DNA from: a virus
Length of the DNA: 33,625 nucleotides
Strand: one strand, 5' to 3'
IMG/VR virus record: IMGVR_UViG_3300029319_000230
Location: 1-33,625 of that record
Position 1 is the stretch's first letter. Each line of letters opens with the position of its first letter. Shown here piece by piece: positions 1,099 to 32,537 of this stretch. The notes below the pieces were generated by a model. That model was not told the origin of the DNA. It ran no database searches and was given only the letters and a program-made list of their open reading frames with translations. The translations under genes were made by a program, and so were the position numbers.

Positions 1099-1378
1099 TA
1101 TGAAAAATAGTAAATTAAGATTAAATGGATCTATTAATGCAACAGATCAAATATCTGTAGGGTTTTGGTTTAACATTGATGACCAGGATTTAGTTGATCA
1201 GCTAGAAAAGTATTACGCTATAGCTAATAAATCACCGTCAATACAGCTGCAAAGGAAAGAGATAGATACATATACAACAATGGGTAACGCTAATCTATTC
1301 TTGCCTGATGAACGCAAAACTATGTTGCAAAGCAACTCAACACCAATAGGGGATGATGATGGTTTCCCTGGAAGGTAG
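1082..1378 (+). CDS. Unknown protein, 98 aa, acidic C-terminus
   Basis: I do not recognise this family. The N-terminal half is beta-like (KLRLNGSINATDQISVGFWF), the middle is helical (DLVDQLEKYYAIANK), and the tail ends in an acidic GDDDGFPGR. A short acidic tail after a beta domain is reminiscent of ssDNA-binding proteins, but the resemblance is loose. The start is set by AAGGAAAGGAAACAAA directly upstream, which gives a good ribosome site. It overlaps the annealing-protein gene by 17 bp and the excisionase-like gene by 26 bp, so it belongs to the same recombination/excision operon. Confidence 0.7.
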   Translation: MPSAPNMKNSKLRLNGSINATDQISVGFWFNIDDQDLVDQLEKYYAIANKSPSIQLQRKEIDTYTTMGNANLFLPDERKTMLQSNSTPIGDDDGFPGR

Positions 1379-1574
1379 ATCTCTTTTTAGACCAAAAGAA
1401 GTAGCCATAAGATTGTTTGGTGATTTTGGCGATGCTAATCGTAAAAGAATTTATCGCTGGATACGAACTGGTAAAATAAAATCTATCAAAGATTCAAGAG
1501 TATACTTTATACCTAAAAATGAAATTATTAGAATTGAATCTGAAATGAATGTAGAAATGGAGATGGCGGATTAG
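1353..1574 (+). CDS. Excisionase-like HTH protein (MerR/Xis type)
   Basis: The 73-aa protein has a winged-helix pattern: FRPKEVAIRLFG (helix 1), then NRKRIYRWIRTGKIKSIK (recognition helix and wing) and RVYFIPKNEIIRI. This is the HTH_17/Xis layout. Phage proteins of this kind bend DNA at attachment sites and direct the integrase toward excision. The gene converges tail to tail with the integrase (stop codons overlap) but is transcribed with the recombination operon, so it could be made in lytic growth when integrase transcription is separate. Three ATG codons stand in a row at 1353, 1356 and 1359, and any of them may be used. It could instead be a general regulator. Confidence 0.65.
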   Translation: MMMVSLEGRSLFRPKEVAIRLFGDFGDANRKRIYRWIRTGKIKSIKDSRVYFIPKNEIIRIESEMNVEMEMAD

Positions 1575-1584
1575 TTTCCGCCAT
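1563..1584. terminator. Bidirectional hairpin between convergent genes
   Basis: ATGGCGGA (1563-1570) and TCCGCCAT (1577-1584) form a perfect 8-bp stem around the six-base loop TTAGTT. The loop holds both stop codons: TAG of the excisionase-like gene and, on the other strand, TAA of the integrase. There is no long T run on either side, so its strength as an intrinsic terminator is uncertain. Confidence 0.6.
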
Positions 1585-2719
1585 ACATCGCTGAAGCAGC
1601 TGCTTGTCTTGCCTTTGCTTGTTTTCTTTCATTCTTAACAAAGTGACCATACTGCTTGTAAGTAAAGTTAGAGTTTGAATGCCCCATGAGAGCAGCTACT
1701 TCCGCCCAATCTTCACCCAGGCTAGATAACTGTACTGATGCATAAAAGTGTCTCATATCGCCCCATAGGATAGGTTTTACACCAGCTCTTTCACAAACTC
1801 TTTTGATTAGTTTGATCAATATCTTTTGTACTTTTGGTGTGCCGTTGGAGCTTGCAAAAACAATGTCACCAGGCGCGCTAAACTTTGATGCGATCTTTAG
1901 CTCTTTTAGTTTCTTCATAGTAGCTGCATCTATAGGTATTTCTCTTCTACCTCTTTTAGTTTTAGTGTCACCAATAATCATTGTGCCATGCTTCACTGCA
2001 CCCTCGATACGAATTGTATCATTATTAAAATCAATGTTGTCCCACTTCAATGCACGCAGCTCACCTTGTCTCATGCCGCTTGCAAGAGCTGTAAGAACCA
2101 TACACTGATCATGAAGAGTTTCAGATGGTAATCCGTCACTAACAATCTTTTGAATTGTCTCAGGCTGTATTCTTGGCGCCCTATCTCCAAGCTCTGATGA
2201 CATACCTAATGATACTTTATCAAGAGGGTTAATTGTAATCCAACCTTTAAGATCACAATAATTCAAAAACATTTTTAATACTTTAATTCTTTTCTCAGCT
2301 GTAGCTTTTGACTTACCTTCGTCAGTAATACCTTTTACAAAAGCTGTAACTAATTCAGATTTGTTTTCTCTTTTGATAATATCAAAACTTTGATCTAAAA
2401 ATTTCTTACCATCAATATTTATATCCAAACAATAACCTAATGATTTTTTAATTTCTTTGAAAAATGAAACAGACAATTCTTTATTATCTATTCTAGTTGT
2501 TTGGTAATGATAAAACTTATCTACTGCCTGGGATACTTTTACTACGTCAACTTTTTCTGCAATAGCACCAGTAATAAATTTAGCTTTGAGTAATTCAGCT
2601 TCTTTCAAAGCTGCTTTTTGTGATGGATAGTTGCCATAATTTACAGAATAACCCACACGCCTTGCATCAATAACCCAATGCTTTCTAGCTTCCCAATATC
2701 TTACTTTAAGATCCTTCAT
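1571..2719 (-). CDS. int: Tyrosine-recombinase integrase
   Basis: The 382-aa protein integrates the phage circle into the host chromosome. It has an N-terminal arm-binding domain (about 1-60), a SAM-like core-binding domain (about 62-165) and a C-terminal catalytic domain. Visible active-site residues are Arg217 in ASGMRQGE, a beta-hairpin Lys at 253 or 255, Arg323 in GDMRH, His347 in LMGHSN and the nucleophile Tyr357 in YKQYGH. The first His of the usual HxxR box is Gly320. AGGAG six bases before the ATG sets the start. The attP site lies 167 bp upstream of the start, the classic int-attP arrangement. A possible sigma-70 promoter lies at 2752-2779. Confidence 0.97.
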   Translation of the reverse strand: MKDLKVRYWEARKHWVIDARRVGYSVNYGNYPSQKAALKEAELLKAKFITGAIAEKVDVVKVSQAVDKFYHYQTTRIDNKELSVSFFKEIKKSLGYCLDINIDGKKFLDQSFDIIKRENKSELVTAFVKGITDEGKSKATAEKRIKVLKMFLNYCDLKGWITINPLDKVSLGMSSELGDRAPRIQPETIQKIVSDGLPSETLHDQCMVLTALASGMRQGELRALKWDNIDFNNDTIRIEGAVKHGTMIIGDTKTKRGRREIPIDAATMKKLKELKIASKFSAPGDIVFASSNGTPKVQKILIKLIKRVCERAGVKPILWGDMRHFYASVQLSSLGEDWAEVAALMGHSNSNFTYKQYGHFVKNERKQAKARQAAASAMYGGN

Positions 2720-2751
2720 TCACCGCTCCTTTGTTAACCGCTTATGTAATA

Positions 2752-2779
2752 AATATAACAGTAGATGACATATTTTCAA
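2752..2779 (-). promoter_or_regulatory. Possible integrase promoter
   Basis: On the minus strand, TTGAAA (2779-2774), a 16-bp spacer and TATATT (2757-2752) match sigma-70 boxes at 5 of 6 positions each. The site lies between the nearer arm-site pair and the integrase ribosome site. Confidence 0.4.
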
Positions 2780-2797
2780 GATAGGAACAGAAAAAAA

Positions 2798-2816
2798 TGT
2801 TAACAAAGTGTTAACA
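2798..2816. promoter_or_regulatory. Integrase arm-type site pair (int side)
   Basis: Two exact copies of TGTTAACA lie at 2798-2805 and 2809-2816, 11 bp apart start to start, beside an A7 run. A matching pair lies on the other side of the attP core at similar distance. On the minus strand the two copies can pair as a hairpin followed by T7, so the site could also slow transcription into the integrase gene. Confidence 0.65.
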
Positions 2817-2867
2817 AGTATAATTTATGTGATCTTTGGAAGAGGTCTTTTGGGGAATAAGCCATTG

Positions 2868-2883
2868 ATATTACTAGTAATAT
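2868..2883. repeat. 16-bp perfect palindrome beside attP core
   Basis: ATATTACTAGTAATAT reads the same on both strands and ends two bases before the tRNA-derived core. It may bind an accessory protein such as the excisionase, or be a hairpin just beyond the tRNA 3' end after integration. Confidence 0.6.
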
Positions 2884-2885
2884 AA

Positions 2886-2930
2886 TGGCGAGAGTGACGA
2901 GACTCGAACTCGCGACCTCCGGCGTGACAG
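2886..2930 (-). other. attP: attP core: 3' half of tRNA-Asp(GTC)
   Basis: Read on the minus strand, these 45 bases run from the anticodon loop CTGTCAC (anticodon GTC) through the 3' anticodon-stem strand GCCGG, variable loop AGGTC, T arm GCGAG-TTCGAGT-CTCGT, 3' acceptor strand CACTCTC and discriminator G to CCA. The 5' half of a tRNA is absent: the bases before the loop do not pair with GCCGG. This is a phage attachment core that rebuilds the host tRNA gene on integration. It sits between two arm-site pairs and next to the integrase. Confidence 0.9.
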
Positions 2931-3017
2931 TTCGTAAAAATCTTATGCGTGGGGTGTAAAGAGGTAGGTATTCAGGGAAATACGGGTACAGAGTTCCCAC
3001 CGATTCCCTCGAAAAAG

Positions 3018-3036
3018 TGTTAACAAAATGTTAACA
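3018..3036. promoter_or_regulatory. Integrase arm-type site pair (far side); possible terminator
   Basis: Two exact TGTTAACA copies lie at 3018-3025 and 3029-3036, again 11 bp apart, 87 bp beyond the core edge. On the minus strand they can pair around TTT and are followed by CTTTTT, two bases after the last gene of the leftward operon. The element may therefore serve both as an integrase arm and as a weak terminator of late transcription. Confidence 0.6.
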
Positions 3037-3037
3037 A

Positions 3038-3142
3038 TTAGGATTTATATTTACCCATGATGGATTTCTTTTTTTTACCATCTTTTTTCATAGGCTTTTT
3101 CTTCATTGTCATTTTTTTACCGCCTGAAGATTTATGATACAT
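3038..3142 (-). CDS. Very small Lys-rich protein, 34 aa
   Basis: The frame starts MYHKSSGGKK and ends GKYKS, with about 14 lysines in 34 residues. The start overlaps the preceding stop (TAATG), and AAAGGAAAATCATA gives a strong ribosome site. It is the last gene of the leftward transcript. Family unknown; the charge suggests nucleic-acid binding, as in the other small proteins of this cassette. Confidence 0.6.
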   Translation of the reverse strand: MYHKSSGGKKMTMKKKPMKKDGKKKKSIMGKYKS

Positions 3143-3333
3143 TATGATTTTCCTTTCATTTTTTTCATTAATGACATTGCTTTTGATTGAGCTGCTTTTG
3201 ATAAATCCTTTGCATGAAATACTTGTTTGGATGCTGCACTGTGTGAAGCGCCAGTATGTATCTGACCATCCATCTTATGTGTCTTGCCCATATAAGGTTT
3301 ACCATCTTTAAAAAAGTGTGTGCCTTTTGCCAT
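3142..3333 (-). CDS. Small basic protein, 63 aa, unknown
   Basis: Sequence begins MAKGTHFFKDGKPYMGKTHKM and ends MSLMKKMKGKS. A repeated aromatic/Gly/Lys N-terminal part is followed by a helical SAASKQVFHAKDLSKAAQSKAM segment. I chose the ATG at 3333 because GGAG stands seven bases before it; an upstream ATG at 3345 lies inside the previous gene with no ribosome site. It resembles short basic proteins seen in marine phage genomes; function unknown. Confidence 0.75.
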   Translation of the reverse strand: MAKGTHFFKDGKPYMGKTHKMDGQIHTGASHSAASKQVFHAKDLSKAAQSKAMSLMKKMKGKS

Positions 3334-3335
3334 TA

Positions 3336-3617
3336 TCAACTCCATTTAGTTCTGTCTGCCCAGTAAGCAGCAGACATTTTTCCCTTGGCTATATTCTTTG
3401 CGTGTCTAGCCTTGAAACTTTTACGTTTGTTTTTCATCCTTTCGCTTTCGCCTTTCTTTGGCGCACCAGCTGTATCAGCTCCTTGTTGACCAAATCGTAT
3501 TGTTTTTATTTTGTCACCTACCTTGGCAACAACAACATGACTTTTTGTAGGATGATTAGGTGTACGCTTTGGTTTATTAAAACCACTGACCTTCATTCTT
3601 TTTAGAATACTGCTCAT
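3336..3617 (-). CDS. Conserved marine-phage small basic protein, 93 aa
   Basis: The protein has a short beta-like N-terminus (SGFNKPKRTPNHPTKSHVVV), a GDKIKTIRFGQQGADTAG segment, and a Lys/Arg-rich tail (KNKRKSFKARHAKNIAKG, then AAYWADRTKW). The HPTKSHVV...IRFGQQG...FKARH...YWADR..W pattern recurs in cyanophage and other marine phage genomes with no assigned role. High charge and the clear motif suggest a structural or nucleic-acid-binding protein rather than an enzyme. The start overlaps the preceding stop (ATGA). Confidence 0.85.
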   Translation of the reverse strand: MSSILKRMKVSGFNKPKRTPNHPTKSHVVVAKVGDKIKTIRFGQQGADTAGAPKKGESERMKNKRKSFKARHAKNIAKGKMSAAYWADRTKWS

Positions 3618-3784
3618 GAAGATCTAACAGAACCCATCTTTGATGCTTTGTTTGCAAACTTAGAACCACCTATCTTTGTCATTGTACCGTATACATAACT
3701 ATCAGCAGCTTTACCCTTCAAACCTTTTGCTTTGGCTTTTGCCATCAAAGATCTTTCTAATTTTTCTTTCATTAGTCCTGGCAT
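3614..3784 (-). CDS. Small basic protein, 56 aa, unknown
   Basis: The frame begins MPGLMKEKLERSLMAKAKAK and continues GLKGKAADSYVYGTMTKIGG to SVRSS. AGGAGG five bases before the ATG is the strongest ribosome site in this cassette. It starts on the last base of the preceding stop (TAATG) and its own stop overlaps the next start (ATGA). Family not recognised. Confidence 0.7.
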   Translation of the reverse strand: MPGLMKEKLERSLMAKAKAKGLKGKAADSYVYGTMTKIGGSKFANKASKMGSVRSS

Positions 3785-4029
3785 TATATCCTCCTAAATT
3801 TTCTAGTTTTCTTCATTATTGACTCAGGTTGTTTTGAAAACTGTTTACCAGCTTTTTTTGACTTTCGTTTAGCAGCTGTAGTTGCAGCATACTCAGCTGG
3901 TGTAAGAGCCTTTATTGCTTTCTCAGGCAAATAACGCTCACCAGTAACGCTTGATTTTTTGCCTGACTTAGTGCGCCATTTCTGTTCGCCCCAGCTCTTC
4001 AGGCTTCTTTGTGACTTGGCTAGGCTCAT
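3784..4029 (-). CDS. Conserved marine-phage small basic protein, 81 aa
   Basis: The sequence MSLAKSQRSLKSWGEQKWR, then TKSGKKSSVTGERYLPEKAI, KALTPAEYAATTAAKRKS and a basic tail is a pattern I recognise from many marine phages (SLAKSQ.SLK.W...KWRTKSGK...TGERYLP..AI..L...EYAATT). No function is established. Many Lys and Arg residues suggest nucleic-acid or virion interaction. It overlaps neighbours on both sides (TCATGA and TAATG). Confidence 0.88.
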   Translation of the reverse strand: MSLAKSQRSLKSWGEQKWRTKSGKKSSVTGERYLPEKAIKALTPAEYAATTAAKRKSKKAGKQFSKQPESIMKKTRKFRRI

Positions 4030-4196
4030 GATCTGTAACCACCACCTCTTGCCTTGTATGTTTTAGCTAGTAGTTGTGCTTTCCTGGCTGACCATTTACC
4101 AGCCGCTGTTCCATGAGTAGCTCTACCTAATATAGATTTATATAATCTTTTTCTCATTTCAGGTTTGGTATAATTACCAGCTTTATTAACCGCCAT
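4026..4196 (-). CDS. DUF5872-like small protein, 56 aa
   Basis: The frame MAVNKAGNYTKPEMRKRLYK continues through AAGKWSARKAQLLAKTYKAR to GGGYRS. The signature AGNYTKP.(M)RK...GKWSARKAQLLAK.YK..GGGY matches a small family seen in phages and environmental genomes that I believe is DUF5872; the number is from memory. Function unknown. Its start lies 11 bp inside the endolysin gene and its stop overlaps the next start. Confidence 0.8.
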   Translation of the reverse strand: MAVNKAGNYTKPEMRKRLYKSILGRATHGTAAGKWSARKAQLLAKTYKARGGGYRS

Positions 4197-4635
4197 GTAA
4201 CAATCCCTTTCTATAGCCTTCTGATCTATTGTATGTCAGTGTTTCTTTTCTACCATCAGGAACATATGAACAATGTATCCAGCCGCTGTTACCTCCCTGG
4301 AAACATTCTAATATTAGTTGATCAAATGGTAGGTTTTCTTCTATCCATGTAGCTAACTTATAATTACTTACACCAGCTACCTCAAAATCTGCTGCTTCAC
4401 CTTTTGCGTGTTGGCTGGTTGCCTTTGATCCAATAGCTTCACATAGTTCAGGTGAACGGTATCCACTTGAAACTATAAATGATCCAAACTCATTTCGTAT
4501 TGGCTGTAATATATTTTCACACAATGCTGTAAGATTAAAAATGTGATCAGCTGTTGGTGTATTTGGTATACCTTTTCTTTCAGCTGTCTGACTTTTTGTA
4601 AGTTCAGCTAGAGAAAAGTTTTTTGATAACATCAT
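4186..4635 (-). CDS. Endolysin, M15A zinc D-Ala-D-Ala peptidase type
   Basis: The 149-aa protein cuts peptidoglycan cross-links at lysis. It opens with the family's LSKNFSLAEL segment, has SGYRS at 56-61, and carries the zinc and catalytic signature SQHAKGEAADFEV (His76, Asp83) and GWIHCSY (His121). Length is normal for the stand-alone family (Peptidase_M15_3). There is no signal peptide, so it needs a holin to reach the wall; the holin-like gene lies immediately upstream with ATGA overlap. Two ATG codons (4635 and 4632) are possible starts behind AGGGG. Confidence 0.93.
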   Translation of the reverse strand: MMLSKNFSLAELTKSQTAERKGIPNTPTADHIFNLTALCENILQPIRNEFGSFIVSSGYRSPELCEAIGSKATSQHAKGEAADFEVAGVSNYKLATWIEENLPFDQLILECFQGGNSGWIHCSYVPDGRKETLTYNRSEGYRKGLLHGG

Positions 4636-5012
4636 TTTTTGCCCCTGAATTTATCTACACCCTTCAATCCTAGTCCAGCTAAAATTGTGAAATACAAAAC
4701 ATTCTGATACCAATCAGGCAGCTCGTTCAGTCTATCAAAACCTTGTTTGACTATATCTTCCATACCAGGGATGAATACCAAGATAACTGGTATCAAAACA
4801 ATTACAGTAATTATTTCGTCTTTCCAAGAACCCTGGGTACTCTGCGCCATAATAAGTTCCCACTTGCTGCTATGAGTTGCAGCTGTCTTCATTACTTCTG
4901 CTTCAGCTTCTGCCTTTGCTTTTGCTACTGCGCCTTTTGCTTTTGTCTGCTCTATCTTTGATTCCATAAAGCTAGATGCAAGGGATGCAAGCGGTGTTAA
5001 AAATTGTAACAT
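4632..5012 (-). CDS. Holin-like membrane protein (GTA_holin_3TM type)
   Basis: The 126-aa protein has an Ala/Lys/Glu-rich amphipathic helix at about 17-45, then SWKDEIITVIVLIPVILVFIPG with a membrane span at 66-83, an LPDWYQNVLYFTILAGLGLKG segment with a second span at 103-117, and a basic end FRGKK. The KDE...P..L.FIP...LP.WY...G.KG..K pattern fits the 3TM holin family of gene transfer agents and marine phages. Holins open the inner membrane on schedule for the endolysin, whose gene directly follows. The first of the family's three spans is weak here (MLQFLTPLASLASSF). Confidence 0.75.
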   Translation of the reverse strand: MLQFLTPLASLASSFMESKIEQTKAKGAVAKAKAEAEAEVMKTAATHSSKWELIMAQSTQGSWKDEIITVIVLIPVILVFIPGMEDIVKQGFDRLNELPDWYQNVLYFTILAGLGLKGVDKFRGKK

Positions 5013-5014
5013 AA

Positions 5015-5326
5015 TTATTTCCTATTCATAAAAGCTGAAGCTCCCATATAAGCAGCAACGATGCCACCGCCAGTGATATAAAAAAGATTAGATATATCGG
5101 CAAGTGCCTTAACTCTTTCGAGATCGACAAAAAACATCGCACCAGTAAATACACCCATAGCAACCAGGCTTGCAGTTGCCATACGTCTTTGCGCCCTTTG
5201 TTTTCGTAAATCATGTTCTAGTTTTTTTATTTCAGTAACATGGCTTAATTCTTCATCTGAAACTATACCATCACCATCTTCATCGTACTCAGCGTATATT
5301 GATTCTTTCTGTAACTTTTTCTGCAT
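5015..5326 (-). CDS. Membrane protein with EF-hand calcium loop
   Basis: The 103-aa protein has a full EF-hand loop near its N-terminus, DEDGDGIVSDEE, with ligand positions Asp15, Asp17, Asp19 and Glu26. A charged helix (KKLEHDLRKQRAQRRM) and two hydrophobic segments follow (about 51-68 and 80-98). Similar EF-hand membrane proteins occur in marine phage lysis regions. It is encoded just upstream of the holin-like gene, so calcium-linked control of lysis or of virion entry is conceivable but unproven. The start is the ATG at 5326, which shares a base with the preceding stop (TGATG) and has AAAGG upstream, not the TTG one codon earlier. Confidence 0.82.
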   Translation of the reverse strand: MQKKLQKESIYAEYDEDGDGIVSDEELSHVTEIKKLEHDLRKQRAQRRMATASLVAMGVFTGAMFFVDLERVKALADISNLFYITGGGIVAAYMGASAFMNRK

Positions 5327-5526
5327 CAATAAACCTTTACTTTTTTTGGATCTACTCTTGGAACTACCTTACAAATACATTCATAAATAATTTGCTTACC
5401 GTCTGCACTATCATAAGTTTGATCACCAAGATATCTTGAATAATACAAACAATCGTTCACATTACGAAAATGCAATTTTGCACTCAGATCTCCTGATAAA
5501 TAGCAAGCCAACATAAAAGCCGTCAT
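5326..5526 (-). CDS. Small Cys-containing secreted or membrane protein, 66 aa
   Basis: The N-terminus MTAFMLACYLSGDLSAKL is hydrophobic and ends near a Cys, like a short signal or lipoprotein-type segment. Four cysteines (Cys8, 26, 50, 52) include a CIC pair, and the tail is PRVDPKKVKVY. Similar short proteins are found in lysis regions of marine podoviruses. An outer-membrane spanin-like role is possible but the lipobox is not convincing. It overlaps its neighbours by ATGA and TGATG. Confidence 0.7.
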   Translation of the reverse strand: MTAFMLACYLSGDLSAKLHFRNVNDCLYYSRYLGDQTYDSADGKQIIYECICKVVPRVDPKKVKVY

Positions 5527-5993
5527 ATAATACCTTTTTTCTTAGCGATTATTGCCAGGACAGTTACAACACCAGCACATAAAGCAGTAATTAAAATAGC
5601 TAAAAGAACTTTCAATGCAGTATCTTGAATTTTCTCTTTTCGTTTTTGGGCAGCTATGGCTGCATCTTTTCTTTTCTTCCTAGCTTCAGCGCAAAATGCC
5701 AGGTAATCTGTATAAAGATTTGGTCTGCCGTAAAGCTGCATGAACTCACGAAGTTGATCTTGTTTCTTTCTTATTTGTTCTAATGCCATAAACTCTTCTA
5801 GATCTGAATCTTGTTTGCCTAGAAAGTTTGTCCAAATACTATTTTTTCTTCTGTGTAAATCGTTTCTGAGTTGATCTTCAGCTGCACAAAAGCGTGAGAT
5901 CGCCGCCCCAGCGTTTGCTATATCTCTCGAATTTTCTACTGTTTTTTTGATGACCGCAAATGCCGCGTTAGCGGCTGCTAACATTTCCAGCAT
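5523..5993 (-). CDS. Conserved phage membrane protein, 156 aa
   Basis: This has a Gly/Ala-rich N-terminal helix (MLEMLAAANAAFAVIKKT), a long charged helical region at about 35-125 with a YGRPNLYTDYLAF segment in the middle, and one clear membrane span at 127-150, then KKKGII. The LEMLAAANAAFAVIKK opening recurs in marine phages next to tail fibres and lysis genes. Role unknown; a tail-associated or inner-membrane protein active in entry or lysis would fit. Weak AGG ribosome site before the ATG. Confidence 0.75.
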   Translation of the reverse strand: MLEMLAAANAAFAVIKKTVENSRDIANAGAAISRFCAAEDQLRNDLHRRKNSIWTNFLGKQDSDLEEFMALEQIRKKQDQLREFMQLYGRPNLYTDYLAFCAEARKKRKDAAIAAQKRKEKIQDTALKVLLAILITALCAGVVTVLAIIAKKKGII

Positions 5994-6018
5994 TTTATGG
6001 TTTACCTTTTATGTAGAT

Positions 6019-6189
6019 TTAATTTTTGATTATTATAGATATTAGAAGCACAATGGTTGTACCAGCAGAGCCTATTAGGACGGCTTCCAGGCGCTTAACA
6101 CGATTCAGTAACTCTATAAATCTTTCTTGGCTAAGTGCTGCTAGAGTATCAAGTTCAGCCTTAACAGATTGCACAGTAGGTTTAGCCAT
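6019..6189 (-). CDS. Small XhlA-like membrane protein, 56 aa
   Basis: The frame begins MAKPTVQSVKAELDTLAALS, forms an amphipathic or coiled helix up to about residue 36 (ERFIELLNRVKRLEAV), and has one membrane span (IGSAGTTIVLLISIII). This layout is that of haemolysin XhlA-like lysis accessory proteins. The ATG shares a base with the preceding stop (TGATG). It probably belongs to the lysis or membrane group. It is a likely gene despite its length. Confidence 0.68.
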   Translation of the reverse strand: MAKPTVQSVKAELDTLAALSQERFIELLNRVKRLEAVLIGSAGTTIVLLISIIIKN

Positions 6190-6371
6190 CAATCAGCATC
6201 CTCTATCTTGTTGCCTTCCTTGACCCATTCTTGGATTGCTTGGTAGTGTCTGTTGGCAGGGTCTAGTGGTACAGACATAAGAACACCATCTATTGTTGCC
6301 TTGATACTCCCAGTACCAATATTGTTAAAGCCTTTTGTGTACTTTGCTAATGTAATATTCATCTTTTCCAT
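6189..6371 (-). CDS. Conserved small protein of tail-fibre regions, 60 aa
   Basis: MEKMNITLAKYTKGFNNIGT is followed by a VPLDPANRHYQAIQEWVKEG block and IEDAD end. The VPLDPANRHY.AIQEWV.EGN.IE.AD signature is frequent in marine phages just downstream of tail fibres. It may assist fibre folding or cap the fibre, but no role is proven. AGGAGT four bases before the ATG sets the start. Confidence 0.82.
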   Translation of the reverse strand: MEKMNITLAKYTKGFNNIGTGSIKATIDGVLMSVPLDPANRHYQAIQEWVKEGNKIEDAD

Positions 6372-6379
6372 AACTACTC

Positions 6380-7504
6380 CTATAACTCTGCATCAAAGTC
6401 TATTCGTGTATGCTGACCTAAATAAGCAACATGGGCATGGTCAGTGCTTGGATTGAAATCTAATCCAATGGTAAATGTTGCTGTCGCATCATGTCCTTGT
6501 ACTAAAGTCATGTTTCCTGCTGTAAAATCATCACTATTTCCATTTCCTTCACAGTGACCTGCATTGTTACTAAGGGTACTTCCATCTTTTGCTACAACTG
6601 ACGCTGATGGTTCTGCTCTCATCATTTCTCTTAGCTGAATAGTAATGAATCCTGTATTTGTTGACCACCTCATTAGTGCATAAGCTGTATATAAATTACC
6701 ATCTGTTGTACCAAAATGTTTTTGAAAATATCTTTCGCACAAAGCTAGTTCTTCCCCAAATGATCTATGCTCAAATGGTGTGGCTTGTGAGCCTACTTCC
6801 ATTTGTATGCCAGTAATATACCACTCATTATCTGTTGAGGACATTATATTTGCTGCTTGTCCTGCATATCTACTAGCTGTGGCTGTGGTTGCCCAAGACG
6901 TTCCCAAAGAACCTGTTGTAAAATTACTACCTGCTGCAACACAAAATGCAATTTCAAATCTGTTACTAACGTCATTGGTAATTGATGTTGCTGTATTTGT
7001 TGGTAGCTTTAATATTTTTCTTTCCCAAGTGTTAGCACTTGATATTGTATATTGTTTTGTAATTGTGCTATCACCTGCTGCATTTAATCTAAACTCAACA
7101 GTATAAACTCCAGTTACATTGGAACGAACATAAAAAGATACAGTCACTTCTTCAGAAGCACTTGAGCCATAATTAAAGTGTTGCACATCTTGACCCTCTA
7201 TTTTATAAAGAAATCTAGCTAACTCATCTGCATCAAGTGATGATTCAGCAGTGGTGCAATCTAGTTTTTGTGATGTTGAGAATCCATCAGGTGCAGTAGA
7301 AGATTGTGATACAGTAAATGCAAAGTTATCTGTGTTGTTTGTTAGAAATTGTATTCTGTCACAAGTTTGAAAACCAGTTGATGTTGATGATGTACCCCTT
7401 TGTGCCACTTGCATTGCACCATTGATGATAATATTCCTTCGCCCACCAATCTGACTATTGGTTAGGACTTCACCCATCTTTGCTAATTCTGCTGCTTTGG
7501 TCAT
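6380..7504 (-). CDS. Tail fibre / receptor-binding protein, jelly-roll type
   Basis: The 374-aa protein opens with MTKAAELAKMGEV and RRNIIINGAMQVAQRGTSS, the attachment-region signature of many marine phage fibres. A beta-rich module follows (about 40-255), with paired-sheet segments ending in WYITGIQMEVGSQATPFEHR and SFGEELALCERYFQK. The module resembles carbohydrate-binding jelly rolls, so it likely contacts the host surface. C-terminal residues 280-374 are a second beta domain. It overlaps the preceding fibre gene by ATGA and is the last of four clustered fibre genes. Confidence 0.83.
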   Translation of the reverse strand: MTKAAELAKMGEVLTNSQIGGRRNIIINGAMQVAQRGTSSTSTGFQTCDRIQFLTNNTDNFAFTVSQSSTAPDGFSTSQKLDCTTAESSLDADELARFLYKIEGQDVQHFNYGSSASEEVTVSFYVRSNVTGVYTVEFRLNAAGDSTITKQYTISSANTWERKILKLPTNTATSITNDVSNRFEIAFCVAAGSNFTTGSLGTSWATTATASRYAGQAANIMSSTDNEWYITGIQMEVGSQATPFEHRSFGEELALCERYFQKHFGTTDGNLYTAYALMRWSTNTGFITIQLREMMRAEPSASVVAKDGSTLSNNAGHCEGNGNSDDFTAGNMTLVQGHDATATFTIGLDFNPSTDHAHVAYLGQHTRIDFDAEL

Positions 7505-8673
7505 TCTGCATTCTCCAATGCTGTAACTTTTGCTTCAAGTGTTTCTATTCTTGCCATAGCTTCTTGTAGTGCTTTTAACGCTTTCATGTGTAAAACAGAT
7601 AATTTTACAGTTTTCTTTTTGTTTCCTTCATTGTCATGTTCTTTTTCTTCAACAAGACCTCCCATATCGGATGCTTCAAGTTCTTGTGCAACAACACCTA
7701 TTTGTGTTAAATCAGGACTAGCAATAAGATTAAAATTTCTAACTTGCACTGCTTTAATATCTGCCCACTGAGATTTTGCATCTACTATATTTTCTTTAAG
7801 TGATTGGTCAGAAAATGAACTATATGTTCCATTGTCATTTCCGATGTCACCATCACCATATATAAATGCTTTACCAGCATTGCCATAAACTTGGACAACA
7901 ACCCCACTACCATTTGTATTTTTAGCAGTATTTATATTACCTGATGATAAAGCTGACCCAAAATTACTTGAGTTGACTGTTTGGTCAGTCCTTGAAATAA
8001 GTAATGCTCCGTTATTATCAACTCGCATAGCTTCTGTAGCATTTGCTCCTACACTGAAGTTCATACCAGCTTCTGTGTTGCCACTTCCACTATATCCACG
8101 AATAGAAGCTAGTGTCGTACCTACACTATTTTCAAACAAGATATTCCCAAAGTTATTATTTGTTGAAGCAGTATCAGAACGAGTAAATTTTAAAGTTGCA
8201 TCGCCTGAACTTTTTGATATTTCAAGTGCAACATCAGGACTAGTAGTGCCTATGCCAACTCGTTCTGAACTATCTATAGTAATAGCAGTAGCATCAGCAT
8301 TATCGTCTATACCTTGAGATGTAAAAGCACCACTAACAGTAAGATTATTACTCATAGTAACAGCACTATCAAAGCTACCACCATTAGCCTTGCTTACTGT
8401 ATCTGCCACTGAGAATACGTCATACACAACAATCACAATCAAATCATCAGCACTTGCTCCTTGTGCCAATACAACAGACGTACCACTGGTACTTGTATAG
8501 TCTGCACTACCTAGCAATACACCATTCTGAAATACATCTATGTAATTTGTATCAACATAAGATAGAGTAACACCCTCGCTACTTGCACCAGTAAATGTAG
8601 TCTGACTAGCAGTGGCTGTGTAGGTATGTACTCGTCTTACTCCGTTGCTTGGACTTGTTCCTATGTATGGCAT
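7501..8673 (-). CDS. Tail fibre/spike with S74 intramolecular chaperone
   Basis: The N-terminal part has a PYIGTSPSNGVR opening, a beta region to about 90 (YVDTNYIDVFQNGVLL...DYT) and repeats (RVGIGTTSPDVALEIS). Residues 285-390 are a Peptidase_S74 chaperone domain: SFSDQSLKENIVDAKSQW with the self-cleavage pair Ser288/Lys293, an IGVVAQELE segment, then a C-terminal coiled coil (MKALKALQEAMARIETLEAK). Such domains trimerise the fibre and are then cut off. AAAGGATAAACA precedes the ATG. The C-terminal domain is closely related to that of the next gene upstream. Confidence 0.92.
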   Translation of the reverse strand: MPYIGTSPSNGVRRVHTYTATASQTTFTGASSEGVTLSYVDTNYIDVFQNGVLLGSADYTSTSGTSVVLAQGASADDLIVIVVYDVFSVADTVSKANGGSFDSAVTMSNNLTVSGAFTSQGIDDNADATAITIDSSERVGIGTTSPDVALEISKSSGDATLKFTRSDTASTNNNFGNILFENSVGTTLASIRGYSGSGNTEAGMNFSVGANATEAMRVDNNGALLISRTDQTVNSSNFGSALSSGNINTAKNTNGSGVVVQVYGNAGKAFIYGDGDIGNDNGTYSSFSDQSLKENIVDAKSQWADIKAVQVRNFNLIASPDLTQIGVVAQELEASDMGGLVEEKEHDNEGNKKKTVKLSVLHMKALKALQEAMARIETLEAKVTALENAE

Positions 8674-8676
8674 TGT

Positions 8677-9510
8677 TTATCCTTTCAATGCTTTCACTTC
8701 TGTTTCAAGTGTTTCTATTCTTGTCATAGCTTCTTGTAGTGCTTTTATTGCTTTCATATACAAAATAGAATATTTAACTGTTTTAACTGTTTCTTTATTC
8801 CATGTAATTTCTTCTACTAATCCATTCATTTCTGATGTTTCAAGCTCTTGTGCTATGACACCAATTTTATTTGCTGAATCTAAATTATCTTCTTTCATGC
8901 TATATTTACGAACTTGTAATGCTTTAATATCATTCCATTGACTATTTGCATCAGATATATTTTCTTTAAGTTTTTCATCTGATATTGTTCCATAAGACCC
9001 AGTTGAATTTGTTACATTTCCATTATTAGCGAAGACGACTCTTTGAGTTCCATTAACTTCAAATCCATAACCATCACCATTAGTATTTAAGTCTATTTGG
9101 TTGCCACTACTTCTTATCCAATTAGAGTTATTTGTACCTGCTGTGCCTGCACTACCAAGAACTAGTCTAACTTGTGATGCTCCAGTACAATGCACATAAC
9201 TATTGCTTCCATCTATTAGAAACTGTTGTGAACTATTTCTTGAAATAGTAAAATCATCACCTGATGTAGATTCAAGTTCCCAATCACTACCTCCTGCTTC
9301 ATAAGCAATAGTAATTTTATCGTCAGCTTCTATTGCACCAGTAACATCTAGTGAAGTTGTTGGACTTGCAGTTCCTATGCCAACCCTATTGTTTGCACTA
9401 TCAACTTTTAATGTTGATGTATCTACAGTTAAGTCATCACTAACACTTGCACTATCAACACTTATAGACGTAGGAAATACTGTTGTTATTTGTTGTCCTA
9501 TATATCCCAT
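8677..9510 (-). CDS. Second tail fibre with S74 chaperone domain
   Basis: The 277-aa protein starts MGYIGQQITTVFPTS, has a short stalk of beta repeats (RVGIGTASPTTSLDVTGAI, ISRNSSQQFLIDG) and ends with an S74 domain from about residue 173: GTISDEKLKENISDANSQW (pair Ser177/Lys182), KIGVIAQELETSEM and the coiled coil YMKAIKALQEAMTRIETLE. It looks like a shortened paralogue of the neighbouring fibre, with matching C-terminus and different tip. AGGAG five bases before the ATG sets the start. Confidence 0.92.
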   Translation of the reverse strand: MGYIGQQITTVFPTSISVDSASVSDDLTVDTSTLKVDSANNRVGIGTASPTTSLDVTGAIEADDKITIAYEAGGSDWELESTSGDDFTISRNSSQQFLIDGSNSYVHCTGASQVRLVLGSAGTAGTNNSNWIRSSGNQIDLNTNGDGYGFEVNGTQRVVFANNGNVTNSTGSYGTISDEKLKENISDANSQWNDIKALQVRKYSMKEDNLDSANKIGVIAQELETSEMNGLVEEITWNKETVKTVKYSILYMKAIKALQEAMTRIETLETEVKALKG

Positions 9511-9518
9511 ATCAACTC

Positions 9519-9845
9519 CTACTCACTAATCGTATCAACTACTGATACCCAAACATCAACCGAACTTGCTACAGTGCTTTGAACTTTTAAAATATCTCCC
9601 GATTGCATGACTATTTTTGCACCACCATCTAACAAAGATAATGCCGAGCCTTTTGGAATCGGTGCTGATTTCACAAGGTAAAAGTCATTTGCTCCATCAT
9701 TGATAAATACATCTACATCTATTTGCGAGGTATGTGTATTTGCTATATTTACACCAACTAATGCATCATCAGAGTTTGCAGTTCTAACTGTAACAGCAGA
9801 CGTTCCCACATTTCTCTGTTTATCTCTTTCAAAATCTTGTGCCAT
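9519..9845 (-). CDS. Small beta-sandwich virion protein, 108 aa
   Basis: MAQDFERDKQRNVGTSAVTV is followed by a run of beta strands (VGVNIANTHTSQIDVDVFIN, YLVKSAPIPKGSALSLLDGG, VDVWVSVVDTISE). Proteins of this pattern occur between tail-fibre genes of marine podoviruses and are probably fibre-base or tail accessory proteins. It has a good AGGAG ribosome site and lies between the T7-type fibre and the S74 fibres. Confidence 0.8.
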   Translation of the reverse strand: MAQDFERDKQRNVGTSAVTVRTANSDDALVGVNIANTHTSQIDVDVFINDGANDFYLVKSAPIPKGSALSLLDGGAKIVMQSGDILKVQSTVASSVDVWVSVVDTISE

Positions 9846-9854
9846 ATTTTACTC

Positions 9855-11408
9855 CTATAAAGCTATAGCCATTGCCACTGCAAAACCTTTTGTTGTAGCA
9901 CTTATATCACTAGCAACCTCACTAGCACTTCTACCCTCTATCGTTGTGCCATTTACCCTTAGAAAATCATTATCTGCTACACCTGATCCAAAGGTAGCTA
10001 CATTACCACTGGATATACCTGATGTTGGTATCTGTGATGTAAGTGCAAGTGTTCCAGCAGTAGCTGGTAAAACTAAAGTTATGTTTCCTGAAAAGTCAGC
10101 GTGTGCTGGTGCTGTAAGCTGTGCATAATGTGCATTAGCTGATTCACAGTAAAATTTTATGTTTGACTGAGATCCACCATTTTTAAGTACAATCTCACCA
10201 GTTTGTATATCTACATTACCATCTATTCTGACTAACCCAGTTCCGTTCGGTGTAAGTGCAATATTACCATTTGATGAAGATACAATACTGTTACCATTTA
10301 CATCTAAATTACCACCGAGTTGCGGCGTGGTATCACCAGCAACAGATGTTAATGATGCTTGTGTTGTTATCTGCCAGGCTGATCCAGTATATACTTTTAG
10401 TGCGTTAGCAGTTGTATCAAAGAACAAATCACCAGCATTAAGAGCATCACCATCATTGTCGGTTGATGGCTCACTTGATTTGGCTCCTAAATACACATCA
10501 TCAAAATTATCTGCGCTAGTTGCAGCTGCTGCTGCGCTTGCTGCTGCTGCCGTAGCACTGTTTGCTGCTTCTGTAGCTTTTGTGCTTGCTGTATCTTTAT
10601 GACCACTTGCTGTTGATGCACTACTTGCAGCTGCTGTTGCAGAGTTTGCAGCATTGGTAGCAGAGGTTGCTGCTGCACTTTGTGCTGTTGTTGAAGATGC
10701 AGCATCTACTATAAGTGAATATTTTGCACTATTAGTATTAGTCGTTAATGGTTGTGATCCGCTAGATGTATGTGCGCTTGTGACGATAAATATATTATTA
10801 GTGCTAGTATCTTTTACAATATCCCTTACTACATACGCAGTGCTTGCCGCCCAATCACCTTTGAATGTTCCTATCTCTTGAGTAACATCTAATTCACCTG
10901 AAGCATCAAACGCTAGTAATTTACTAGCTCTGTCAGTTGCTGACGTAGAAAATTCACTTGATGTAATAGTATTTGTTCTTGAGAGTTTGATTGTTCTATC
11001 AAGCTCTTCTTGCAGTTGTTGCGTTATAAACGTAACTCTATCTAATGCATTTTCATGACTTTCAGCTGGAAACGGATCATTCTCAACATAGTCTGTTCCC
11101 TGGGTAAGAGTTAAGTTTCTTCTTATTAAAACAGTTTCACCACTGGCTGGTCTATTATCTGTAGATGAATGATGAGCATCAGAGCTGTTACCAGTGTTAA
11201 ATTTAAACAAAACATTACCACCTGATGAATTACCAGCGTTTGTAACAATGTAATGTGTATTTAGTGTCTTTACAGTTTCAACACCAGTAGATGATCTTAT
11301 AATTACAGTAAGATCAGCGTCAGCAAATATCTTAAATCCATAGGCAAAACTATGGGTAGATCCATTACCTGAATAACTGTTCTTGGTAGTTGTACTAGAT
11401 ACTGTCAT
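9855..11408 (-). CDS. Tail fibre with T7 gp17-type N-terminal anchor
   Basis: Residues 1-145 match the phage T7 tail-fibre N-terminal domain (YSGNGSTHSFAYGFKIF; VLIRRNLTLTQGTDYVENDP; SHENALDRVTFITQQLQEEL), which attaches the fibre to the tail. A carbohydrate-binding-like module follows at about 183-232. Residues 236-300 are an Ala/Ser/Thr-rich coiled shaft, then GDLFFDTTANALKVYTGSAW and beta repeats to the C-terminus. The other fibre proteins encoded downstream probably branch from this one. AAAGG precedes the ATG. Confidence 0.92.
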   Translation of the reverse strand: MTVSSTTTKNSYSGNGSTHSFAYGFKIFADADLTVIIRSSTGVETVKTLNTHYIVTNAGNSSGGNVLFKFNTGNSSDAHHSSTDNRPASGETVLIRRNLTLTQGTDYVENDPFPAESHENALDRVTFITQQLQEELDRTIKLSRTNTITSSEFSTSATDRASKLLAFDASGELDVTQEIGTFKGDWAASTAYVVRDIVKDTSTNNIFIVTSAHTSSGSQPLTTNTNSAKYSLIVDAASSTTAQSAAATSATNAANSATAAASSASTASGHKDTASTKATEAANSATAAAASAAAAATSADNFDDVYLGAKSSEPSTDNDGDALNAGDLFFDTTANALKVYTGSAWQITTQASLTSVAGDTTPQLGGNLDVNGNSIVSSSNGNIALTPNGTGLVRIDGNVDIQTGEIVLKNGGSQSNIKFYCESANAHYAQLTAPAHADFSGNITLVLPATAGTLALTSQIPTSGISSGNVATFGSGVADNDFLRVNGTTIEGRSASEVASDISATTKGFAVAMAIAL

Positions 11409-11418
11409 TTTTTTACCT

Positions 11419-14400
11419 TTAATCTAATAAATTATTTTCAAAAAACACACGCTGTAATTCTTCATTGCCAGGCATTGCAAGCATTATTGGCAATGCAGCT
11501 TCGTAAAAATCACTTTCAGCTTTTTTAATCATCCTTATTTTTGCATCATCTTTTGCTCTTATATAAACTGGATGCACCGTAAGAACCTTTAAATAATCTC
11601 TAAATTTATACATACCGCTGCCCCTTGAACCTTGAACATTCAAACGCAACATAACTTTGTTTTTAGCTATTTCTGTGAGCTGCCCTCTTCTAATATTATC
11701 CAGGGCAACACCATTTATTCTTTCCTTTTCATCTGTTAAAGGCGCACCTAATCTAACAAGTTCAGCAAAATAAGGTTCTATATTTTCTTCGCCATATTTC
11801 ATTCTAAATGGCGTAATGCTATTCCATAAAGCAAGCATTGGATTTACAGAAAAAGGCACACCTCGTTCTTTTTTAAATCCAAGCATATCGTATTTATATG
11901 CATAGTTTTCTTCTACACCTTTTACATACGGTATAGTCATAACTTGCTGGTTCCATCCGTATGCAACCGTGTCATAAAAAAACGTAGCTGCTGAATCACC
12001 ATCTATATTTTTTTTAGTACCAACTAATGAGTATGGTATTTCTTTGAATGGATTGTCTGTATTTTGACTATCATCATATAATTTTTTTACATCAGCAATT
12101 GTATAATATAATTGTGGTATTGCTGGTTGTTTACTAGGTATTATAGTGCCTTGTCCTTCAACACCCTCTTCACTATCTGTTAGTTTTTTTATGTTTCTAA
12201 CAGCGCTGCTATAAGGCAATGGAAATGCACCAACCATACTACCTAACGGACTATCAATAATTAGTGATGGATCTGCATAATCATAAGCTCTTATAATAGA
12301 TCCTAAACCTTGAAGAAACGGTAAGTCTCTGAAATAATCAGCAGTTGCTACAACACCAGCTGAAATTAAATTTAACCTATCTTCAGGATCATAAAACATA
12401 GTTTGATATTGAGCTGTACTTGCTGCAATACCTAAAAATGCACTTACTGGTTCTAAACCCTGATAACTAACATAAAGTAATTTACCATTCGGCAACCCAG
12501 TTTTTTCATTATACATTGGTAACGGATCACCATCATCATCCGTTGGAAAACCTTCAGCTCTAAAAACTAAACTATATGGCTGCCATCCTGGGGGCAACAT
12601 TTTTTGCGCCGTTTTGTCTCTTGGGTATGACCCAGTTAACTGACCATTGATAGCATACTCATGAAATATAGCCAATGTCATTGCACCCAATGACATTTTA
12701 CCCATAGCTCTTTGTTGCGCCCTTGCACCATTTTGCCCAAGTAAGTTTTTTCTAATAGTGCTGCTTGGATTTAACATTGATGCAAGAATTACCAATGGAT
12801 GACCTTCGCCAACTCTTAACATACTATTTGTTGGCGCCTTGGCAAAAGGCATCAACAATTTACCAAAAAAGTTTTTTCTAATACCTTTAGTAAATGATCC
12901 TAGTAATCCATCACCAAGATCATCTGTCATTGTTACATATCTAGCTGCGTTATCTAGTTCATCTGATTTATACTTTGGATCTAACAAAGTCATCATAGCA
13001 TCATCAACAGCTACGTCTGTTGAATTACCTTTTGCTTTTGATGCTCTAGCAGTTCTTACAGCTTGTTCATATAACTCACCACGGCTTGAAATAACTCTCC
13101 AAAAATCATCTGCTGCTTGTAGAGCTGTACCTGGGTATCTAATTAACTTACCAATTTTATCAATAGCTTGACCAGCTGCACCTGATATATTTAATGTTTC
13201 AGAATCAATCGCCCTATAATTAGAGTTTTCAATTTTATTTAAAACATCAGCTGGTACGCCACTTTCAAATGTTTTGCCCATAACAACATAGGCATCTCTT
13301 AATGATTTAGAATATCCATATACCCTGGCAAACAAATCTTCAAAATACACACCTTCAGGATTTACTTGCTTACCAACTAATCTTTGACCAGTTCTAACGC
13401 CACTTCCTATACTAGCTGCCAACATATCTGCCATTAAATTGTACGTCATGAATAATGGCGTAGCTAACATATTTTTAAGATGAGTAGGCGCCCAGCTTAA
13501 TAAACCATTTATGTATACTTCTTGCCAAATATCACCAATCTTTTGATACCATGCACCAGCCACATATTTATTAGCATTCGCCTGACCACCAGTTTTAAGT
13601 GCGTCTAGATAACCTTTAGCCATATCTTGTGCTAATTTAGTGCCACCAGTTTCATCAAGTATAACTTGCGCCTGAACATCAGGAATATTAGTACCAGTTT
13701 TAATTCTAAATGATTGTAATGCCCTGGCTATTTCAGTTTGTGCGCCTTTTGCTTTCATTTGTATTCCAGCATGAATAGACATTTGGCGCCTGAATGCTAC
13801 CAAGTCATTTGGACTTGCATCACCACTTTCAACTTTTTTAGCTAACTCTTCTAATCTAGATGCTGATTTTTGTAACAAAACTCTAACAGCTGTCATTTCT
13901 TCAGCATTTAAGAGTTGTCCTGATTTTTTATTAAGTAGTTTTTTTGTCAGACCAATTTCATCAGCAAGTAATTCTGAAGCATTTGCAAGTGTTTCTTCGT
14001 TTGTTTGTATACCTCTTTTTTCTAATTCTTGTGGGTTTTTGTATATTTCACTAATTGAATTGATAGCTCTATTAACATCACTACCACTTTCAAAATTATT
14101 AAAATTAAAATCTAAGCCAGTGTCACTTGTAATTAAATCTTTTTTCCTAATTTCTAAAAAGTCTAAAGCGTCACCTTCATTCGCAAGACCAGTTTGAAAA
14201 TTTCTCATACCTTTTTTGGCAACTGTATTTACTTCTTCATCAGCTGCTTTTTTAGCAAGATCAATTAAATCGTCTTCAGGCTCTATTGCTACTTTTGCTT
14301 GAAAGCCAGCCTTTGCAAATCTTTCTTGACCTTCAGGTGTTAAGACCTTTTCAGATGTATCCTTTTGTACACCTTTGTATGTTTCATCATCTTTTAACAA

Positions 14401-14688: not shown

Positions 14689-14871
14689 TTAGGACATTTG
14701 TGAATTTTTTTCACTTGTCGGTTTGTTTGCAGATCCACTAACATACAACTCGGCAAATCCTTTGCCTGATTTTTTTGCTTCGATTTGTCTTCTTAGGTTT
14801 TTTACAATAAAGGAATTTTCATCTTTACCTTTTTGTAATTGCCTATCTAGTTGCTGTTCCAAAGTACTCAT
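14689..14871 (-). CDS. Small unknown protein, 60 aa
   Basis: It begins MSTLEQQLDRQLQKGKDENS, is mostly helical and charged, and ends with polar NKPTSEKNSQMS. I place the start at the ATG at 14871 with GGAG nine bases upstream; a GTG at 14886 in the same frame has no ribosome site. The start lies 29 bp inside the preceding large gene. It may be a virion chaperone or minor internal component; no family recognised. Confidence 0.65.
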   Translation of the reverse strand: MSTLEQQLDRQLQKGKDENSFIVKNLRRQIEAKKSGKGFAELYVSGSANKPTSEKNSQMS

Positions 14872-23540: not shown

Positions 23541-24404
23541 TTACTCTGAACACTTAATTTCTATTACTTTTTCTTCTTCCATGCGAGTAGCTCCCATAGT
23601 CATGCAGTAATAGACTTGTGTTGCGTATGATTTATCAGCTCTTACATCGATCCTAGCTTGAGGTTCTTTGCCTAGAGCCACCTTCATTCCATCTTGCGCC
23701 CAGGCAAATACTCGTCTATCAGAGCTACCATCAACTGGTAATCTGTTAGAAACGATAAATTCAAACCCAACGAAATTTGATATTGTTCCAGTACTTAACG
23801 CACGCACTGTATTAAAATCGGCGCTAGTGACTGTTGTTGAGTTTAACAAATCGCTGATTTGCTTTGGTGACACAACGATGTATCTTGGGATAGATGGATC
23901 AACAGAGTTCTCATCAAGCTTCTGTTTTGCTTCAACTAACTTAGCGATTGTTAGACCGCCTGATCCTGAAGCAATTTGATTACCAGCTGGAAATGATGTT
24001 GTAGTAGATCCATCTTTCCCAGTTTTGGCATCGCCAAACATTGCAGCGATGATAACGTCATCCATCTTTCTGCCCATTGCAGCTGCTGCTGCCCTGGCGT
24101 AAGTTGATGTAGGATCAATCAATAATCTGATTTTATCCTGATCATCTATTAAAGTCGCATACTCATAATCTGACATTGTGACCATACGTCTTTCATGAGG
24201 TGTTTCAACCAAAGGTGTATCAGCGTTCCTTGTAGTTTTTTCTACAGCTGCTGTTGATCCAACTTGGTCGAAGAAAGCCTTCTCACCATTAACAGTTTCA
24301 ATATCTACGGTGTTTCGTAGAAGTGATCCCATTTGTTGTGAGAGAAGCTGAACATTCGATGAAAATTGATTCACGAATGCGGTAGTTATCTGATTCGCAG
24401 ACAT
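23541..24404 (-). CDS. Major capsid protein
   Basis: The 287-aa protein has N-terminal helix FVNQFSSNVQLLSQQMGSLL, then IETVNGEKAFFDQVGSTAAV, a TPHERRMVTMSDYEYATLID segment, AAAAAMGRKMDDVIIAAMFG and C-terminal PRYIVVSPKQISDLL and TMGATRMEEEKVIEIKCSE. This pattern belongs to the HK97-fold major capsid family of podoviruses with gp12-type tails. Position after scaffold confirms it. GGAG seven bases upstream sets the start, and a 110-nt structured leader lies ahead of it. Confidence 0.94.
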   Translation of the reverse strand: MSANQITTAFVNQFSSNVQLLSQQMGSLLRNTVDIETVNGEKAFFDQVGSTAAVEKTTRNADTPLVETPHERRMVTMSDYEYATLIDDQDKIRLLIDPTSTYARAAAAAMGRKMDDVIIAAMFGDAKTGKDGSTTTSFPAGNQIASGSGGLTIAKLVEAKQKLDENSVDPSIPRYIVVSPKQISDLLNSTTVTSADFNTVRALSTGTISNFVGFEFIVSNRLPVDGSSDRRVFAWAQDGMKVALGKEPQARIDVRADKSYATQVYYCMTMGATRMEEEKVIEIKCSE

Positions 24405-28883: not shown

Positions 28884-28902
28884 TGTTAACATAGTGTTAA
28901 CA
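28884..28902. promoter_or_regulatory. Third TGTTAACA pair
   Basis: Exact TGTTAACA copies at 28884-28891 and 28895-28902 have the same 11-bp spacing and adjacent A/T run as the two pairs at attP, but lie over 7 kb from attP on the circle. Confidence 0.55.
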
Positions 28903-31892: not shown

Positions 31893-32537
31893 ATGCGTGC
31901 TAAAGATGATGAATTGTTAACAAAATTAAGCACAATGAAAAAAAATAATTTGAAACAACTAATCAGATTAGCTGGTTTATCACACGCTGAAGTAGCCGAA
32001 AAAAAAGGTATAGCTCCTGAAAGTTTGTCCAGGCATATATCAGGACGATCTCAGTTTAGTATTCAGGATGCAGAAGATTATGCTGAGATACTTGATATAG
32101 ACCCTAGTCAGCTGCTTTTTCCAAACCCTGAAGTGAAAATATACGGCAAGATAATTGATTCAAATGTCGTTGTTATGAATGATACATCAGACCCTGAAGA
32201 ATGGATATCCACACCATTTAGATACCCACCTCATGTTGGCGTAATTCTTGACAAGCGCGAAACATTTAACAATTTCATGGATGGTGCAATGTTAATGATT
32301 GATATTAGACCTATACAAAAACAAAACGTTCCACAAACTGCGTTTGGTAAAAATTCAATTGTAAAAACAGATGATGGTAAAATTTTACAAAGAGCAATAT
32401 TTCCATCTTATGATGGCAAGTTTACACTTGTTTCTCTTAATGGCGCAGTAACTTCTGATATAAATTTGAAGTTTGCTTGTCCAGTTCTCATGCGCGTTGA
32501 AAGACCTGAACTTTTAGGTTTTCAAAATAAAAGTTGA
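31893..32537 (+). CDS. CI-like phage repressor
   Basis: The 214-aa protein has an N-terminal HTH at about 18-75 (LKQLIRLAGLSHAEVAEKKG, IAPESLSRHISGRS) and a C-terminal S24/LexA-like beta domain (FMDGAMLMID; NSIVKTDDGKILQRAIFPSY; FTLVSLNG). It should bind the operators at 31820-31836 and hold the lytic promoter off in a lysogen. The Ser and Lys of the S24 self-cleavage pair appear replaced (ET where SM is usual, Gln in LQRA), so autocleavage is doubtful. GGAG nine bases upstream sets the start. Confidence 0.87.
   Translation: MRAKDDELLTKLSTMKKNNLKQLIRLAGLSHAEVAEKKGIAPESLSRHISGRSQFSIQDAEDYAEILDIDPSQLLFPNPEVKIYGKIIDSNVVVMNDTSDPEEWISTPFRYPPHVGVILDKRETFNNFMDGAMLMIDIRPIQKQNVPQTAFGKNSIVKTDDGKILQRAIFPSYDGKFTLVSLNGAVTSDINLKFACPVLMRVERPELLGFQNKS

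Follow-up and report, generated by a model that had tools for sequence, protein, structure and literature searches.

The 45 nucleotides at positions 2886-2930 are the attP common core of a temperate phage of the HTVC010P lineage with a SAR116 host, a reading to which we give a probability of about 0.93. They lie in a window, the whole stretch of uncultured virus DNA that was analysed (33,625 nucleotides, or 33.6 kb, with 36.9% GC). In the proposed mechanism, the integrase (1571-2719) would bind the core together with tandem TTGTTAACA arm sites on both sides of it, and would recombine attP with the 3′ half of the host tRNA-Asp(GTC) gene; the 3′ half brought in by the phage would then restore the tRNA gene at attL, with the host's own 3′ half moved to attR. 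Taken alone, this is an ordinary tRNA-targeting attP.

The attP core matches the tRNA-Asp gene of SAR116 bacteria

The attP region comprises the following features:

1571-2719, minus strand: tyrosine integrase, 382 aa (PF00589, E 9e-23; phrog_1)
2627-2650, minus strand: integrase codons 24-31, part of a hypervariable patch, in the beta2-beta3 turn and strand 3 of the predicted arm-binding domain
2752-2779, minus strand: possible integrase promoter, TTGAAA-16-TATATT with an extended -10; a consensus match only, not enriched over shuffles
2798-2817, minus strand: P′ arm, two tandem candidate arm-type repeats TTGTTAACA with an 11-bp period
2886-2930, minus strand: attP core, tRNA-Asp(GTC) from position 32 to CCA, an exact match to the host gene
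2931-3017, minus strand: conserved spacer between P arm and core, present at attR of the SAR116 cassettes
3018-3037, minus strand: P arm, two tandem candidate arm-type repeats TTGTTAACA with an 11-bp period

Read in the sense of the tRNA, the order is late genes, P arm, core, P′ arm and integrase, with the integrase gene starting at 2719 on the same strand as the core. The reverse complement of 2886-2930 is CTGTCACGCCGGAGGTCGCGAGTTCGAGTCTCGTCACTCTCGCCA, which confirms the preliminary description of these 45 bases as the 3′ part of tRNA-Asp(GTC), from anticodon loop to CCA, with no 5′ half. ARAGORN found no complete tRNA in the window or in any of the six other IMG/VR contigs that carry the exact 45-mer, and no Rfam family matched anywhere in the window. 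The coordinates 2886-2930 are right: on the anticodon side, phage and host become identical at precisely position 2930 (phage ...TTTACGAA, host ...GCGCCGGC). An exact identity of 45 bases to a tRNA gene lies far beyond chance. In an alignment of nine phages, 43 of the 45 core columns are invariant, as against 82 of 115 and 58 of 95 columns in the two flanks.

The exact 45-mer occurs on 33 contigs from 32 genomes of a GTDB-based collection; 31 of these genomes belong to the SAR116 order, and the remaining one is a MAG of Magnetovibrio (L026). In 31 occurrences the 45-mer follows GGGGGTGTAGCTCAGTTGGTTAGAGCGCCGGC and ends a 77-nt gene called by ARAGORN as tRNA-Asp(gtc), and a core within three mismatches is present in 46 of 136 SAR116-order genomes. 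The earlier suggestion of a marine alphaproteobacterial host, to be sought through a bacterial tRNA-Asp gene ending in these bases, is thus supported by the 31 SAR116-order genomes with the exact core. The accompanying prediction that the host tRNA-Asp would start with GAGAGTG was wrong, however: the observed 5′ acceptor strand is GGGGGTG, and the GGGGGTG/CACTCTC acceptor stem pairs via two wobbles, G2.U71 and G4.U69.

Integration junctions in SAR116 genomes

Pairs of attL and attR were found at tRNA-Asp in four SAR116 genomes, at L022 in G001, at L034 in G002, at L011 and L009 in G003, where the element spans two contig ends, and at L030/L077 in G004. All four have an attL that consists of a complete tRNA-Asp and the phage P′ arm, and an attR that consists of the phage P arm, a second core and the host flank. 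Compared by eye, the sequence beyond attR resembles the empty sites of relatives (L022 vs L027, L034 vs L032, and L009 vs L018/L039). The attR core of G004 carries substitutions and has lost CCA while the tRNA at attL is intact, as expected if selection acts on attL only. More decayed P-arm relics are present in G018 and G047; that of G047 (L076) is a decayed core at about 2284-2328 with a P arm, on a 5.4-kb SAR116 contig that contains flagellin- and TPR-like ORFs and no tRNA.

The complete tRNA-Asp at attL and the matching attR support both the attP reading and the restoration of the host gene on integration; the restored gene was observed with cassettes that have these att arms and not with a complete phage. 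The search for prophages that the preliminary description had advised thus succeeded in part: attL and attR do lie at tRNA-Asp in SAR116, but the elements that they bound are integrase-less cassettes. A complete prophage with the window integrase was found in 0 of the 136 SAR116-order genomes (one genome per species, many of them probably incomplete), and no relative of the integrase was found in them; as a positive control, the integrase search recovered relatives 54-96% identical in phage contigs.

Since phages do carry tRNA genes, and some large phages match the core stretch within annotated tRNA-Asp genes, the 45 bases could in principle be unrelated to integration and be, for instance, a fragment of a degenerate phage tRNA gene. 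We consider the probability of this to be negligible: the 5′ half is absent from all the phages, a tyrosine integrase gene is adjacent, the core is better conserved than its flanks and is accompanied by arm repeats, and the attL/attR pairs in the hosts already contradict it.

A temperate relative of HTVC010P-type pelagiphages

The attP belongs to a phage whose terminase and capsid are closest to those of HTVC010P-type pelagiphages. The features that bear on its identity and lifestyle are:

1353-1574, plus strand: small HTH protein, excisionase-like candidate (HTH_17 match below the Pfam gathering score)
23541-24404, minus strand: major capsid protein, 65.5% identical to HTVC010P
27503-28786, minus strand: terminase large subunit, 55.7% identical to pelagiphage HTVC010P
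31893-32537, plus strand: CI-type repressor (HTH_3)

The window phage shares the structural lineage of HTVC010P (terminase, capsid) and differs from it in having added an integrase, an attP and a repressor. A temperate lifestyle is supported by the repressor and the excisionase-like HTH gene. In the phage collection, no close relative was found by megablast of window positions 1500-12000 or by blastn of 1500-3100, for which the short matches sit in the tRNA core, and the integrase matches listed by tblastn were only about 24-33% identical.

Candidate arm-type repeats flank the core and recur near the terminase

All nine aligned phages have at least two direct 11-bp repeats, TTGTnnnCAYTT, on each side of the core, and within each phage the variable bases are the same on both sides. 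These bases define four classes: TAA in the window, ACA in six phages (L041, L043, L046, L047, L052 and L053), AGA in two (L042 and L044) and TTG in L045, which has five P and three P′ repeats. We propose that the repeats are the arm-type sites of the integrase. A further copy of the arrangement lies far from attP:

28884-28902, no strand assigned: third tandem pair TGTTAACA...TGTTAACA, between TerS and TerL

The triplet of this third cluster is that of the attP arms in the window (TAA), in L041, L046 and L047 (ACA) and in L050 and L051 (TTG); L048 is an exception by one base, with ACA in the third cluster and ACT/ACC in the attP arms. The window pair is flanked by an inverted repeat, TGTAGGA/TCCTACA. 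In HTVC010P, the region just upstream of the terminase showed no tandem repeat of the attP-arm kind. At 26 kb from attP, the third cluster is not explained by integration alone.

Its position upstream of the terminase, together with that of the P′ cluster just upstream of the possible integrase promoter, would fit a different function, in which the TTGTnnnCA repeats are operators of the phage repressor or a Cro-like regulator and the core is still an attP. Such a function is improbable. TTGTTAACA is absent from the intergenic region between repressor and Cro in the window, where the single nearby copy is inside the repressor gene; the repressor, the Cro-like protein and the excisionase-like protein contain no column that tracks the repeat class, in contrast to columns 26-27 of the integrase; and pairs of 11-bp repeats flanking a core are a known arrangement of arm-type sites (PMC3203893).

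Integrase residues 26-27 vary with the arm class

Within the main group, integrases share 88-97% identity with that of the window, yet their residues 24-35 are strongly variable, and in this patch the identity of residues 26-27 follows the arm class. At residue 27, each of the four classes has its own constant amino acid (N, R, Y or A), and no other column in the comparable shared proteins has four states for the four classes. The same pattern is present in integrases that are 54-69% identical, with K replacing R in one of them; the distant integrases have SHA with TTG arms (L049-L051), LGNK with ACC/ACT arms (L048/L096) and LNDR with TTGTACTAC arms (L095). A permutation test on nine non-redundant integrases gave p = 0.0009, a value that overstates independence, as the proteins are related and the grouping of R with K was chosen post hoc. 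Linkage could explain part of the association, given the physical closeness of the P′ arm and the patch, but linkage by itself would not readily account for the cluster beside the terminase, at a distance of 26 kb.

A model of the whole integrase had low confidence (pLDDT 57), and the structural comparison was therefore restricted to the N-terminal 60 residues. They are predicted to form three strands and a helix (beta-beta-beta-alpha; pLDDT 85), the known arrangement of lambda-type arm-binding domains. In the model, the variable patch runs from the beta2-beta3 turn through strand 3 into the beginning of the helix. The lambda IntDBD bound to P′2 DNA ranked second against this model, with a Z of 3.7 that counts as weak (Z under 8), and Foldseek returned no significant match for the N-terminal domain. 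With arm bases and two integrase residues covarying while the core stays fixed, the predicted arm-recognition code should be testable with few mutants.

Several other variations were observed in the integrase region. The motif at integrase residues 320-324, usually HxxRH, reads GDMRH, and Gly320 is invariant in ten aligned integrases. The integrase gene of L045 has an in-frame stop (TAA) at codon 10 (10001-10030), possibly a sequencing error or a broken gene. Small variable ORFs, absent from the window, lie between the P′ arm and the integrase in L042, L043, L046 and L047. L095 carries a GC-richer tRNA-Asp 3′ half at about 2788-2832 (CTGTCACGCCGGAGGCCGCGGGTTCGAGTCCCGTCACTCCCGCCA) with TTGTACTAC arm repeats and an integrase 54% identical to that of the window, and its host is probably another alphaproteobacterium. 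In L096 (about 2261-2318) and L048, whose integrases are 68-69% identical to the window integrase, the core, read by eye, is apparently the 3′ part of a tRNA-Glu(TTC) within the same arm architecture; no attR of this type was found in SAR116.

Integrase-less cassettes at the SAR116 tRNA-Asp gene

The elements between attL and attR are small: 2.15 kb in G001 and G004, 1.6 kb in G002 and at least 2.8 kb in G003. Their cargo consists of a DndB-family protein with a 73-aa ORF, a trypsin-like protein, or a GmrSD_N protein, the last with a likely C-terminal part on the second G003 contig that has an SLFN_AlbA_2 domain; we infer that the pieces on both contigs belong to a single gene. The cassettes are homologous to the phages only in the core with the P′ arm on one side and the P arm with the core on the other, including the core flanks and the tandem 11-bp arm repeats. 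The one exception is a 60-aa ORF in G003 (L009 1289-1471), 83% identical to part of window 14689-14886 in the phage late region. Genes for an integrase, replication, capsid or terminase were not seen in the cassettes, nor was a packaging signal identified in them. Each is thus bounded by attL and attR with no recombinase inside, the G003 element being split and the attR core of G004 decayed.

How these cassettes arose can be read in two ways. They may be prophage remnants left by deletion of phage genes and not mobile units, a reading that falls short of even odds and yet deserves serious weight: the cassettes lack an integrase, the P′ repeats of G001 and G004 and a P repeat in G003 and in G004 are partly degenerate, G018 and G047 hold clear relics, and the 60-aa ORF of G003 resembles a late-region sequence. 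Remnants would not readily account for three different cargos, each joined to phage DNA at or near the arm repeats and retaining, measured from the core, about 70-150 bp of it towards P′ and 150-167 bp towards P, or for cargo proteins with no close relatives in IMG/VR contigs; the arm class is also equal at both ends of a cassette, ACA in G001 and G003 and TTG in G002. The alternative, which we advance tentatively and would not yet favour, is that SAR116 bacteria harbour minimal cassettes, made of a phage attP arm set and one or two cargo genes, some of them defence-like, which may be moved in trans at tRNA-Asp by phage integrases of the matching arm class.

Relation to known systems and significance

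Parts of this picture have precedents, among them the link between attP and SAR116 tRNA genes and the covariation of arms and integrase (PMC3861242; PMC3203893). The uvMED group G16 comprises phage genomes of about 35.5 kb and 35% GC, some of which encode an integrase and have an attP that is the same as a stretch of a SAR116 tRNA gene (Mizuno et al. 2013, PMC3861242). The window phage is similar in size and GC and is likewise linked to SAR116 by attP/tRNA identity; the difference is that the G16 host was deduced from the match alone (PMC3861242), whereas attL/attR and empty sites were seen here.

In the Cluster K1 mycobacteriophages CrimD, Anaya and Adephagia, pairs of 11-bp arm sites flank the attP core, and the arm sequence varies among close relatives with integrase N-terminal residues 17 and 19 (PMC3203893). 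The likeness to the window phages thus extends to both the paired 11-bp arms and their covariation with the integrase N-terminus. However, the Cluster K1 core is in tmRNA and not in tRNA-Asp, P3/P4 are inverted relative to P1/P2 whereas the window repeats are all direct, and the section on the Cluster K1 attP describes no third cluster of the kind that the window has near its terminase (PMC3203893). In a limited search of open-licence literature, no precedent was found for a third arm cluster with a shared code, or for SAR116 cassettes in which cargo is combined with the attP arm set of a phage.

Islands with attL and attR and no integrase have been discussed as cis-mobilizable elements for the ssrA islands of Dehalococcoides, and such att-bounded cargo without integration genes was proposed to move with adjacent elements (PMC3146451). 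The SAR116 cassettes are likewise att-bounded cargo without integration genes; they differ in using a phage att system, in carrying one or two cargo genes and in that their arms can be traced to classes of phage integrase. Phage satellites and tycheposons are small helper-dependent elements, some proposed from marine bacteria (PMC11389934), and the cassettes too are small elements of marine bacteria, but genes for an integrase, replication, capsid or terminase were not seen in them.

These data tie an uncultured phage to SAR116 through actual integration junctions and not through a tRNA match alone, and they provide a natural series in which the arm bases vary jointly with two neighbouring integrase residues around a constant core. 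The parts that deserve follow-up are this series of arm codes and the cassettes without an integrase. If the cassettes are indeed moved in trans, diversifying arm codes would set which phage mobilises which cassette and would stop co-resident elements from excising each other, and the integrase would be coupled to packaging or late expression through the third cluster beside the terminase. The cassettes suggest a route by which small-genome ocean bacteria may gain single defence-like genes via a phage integration system.
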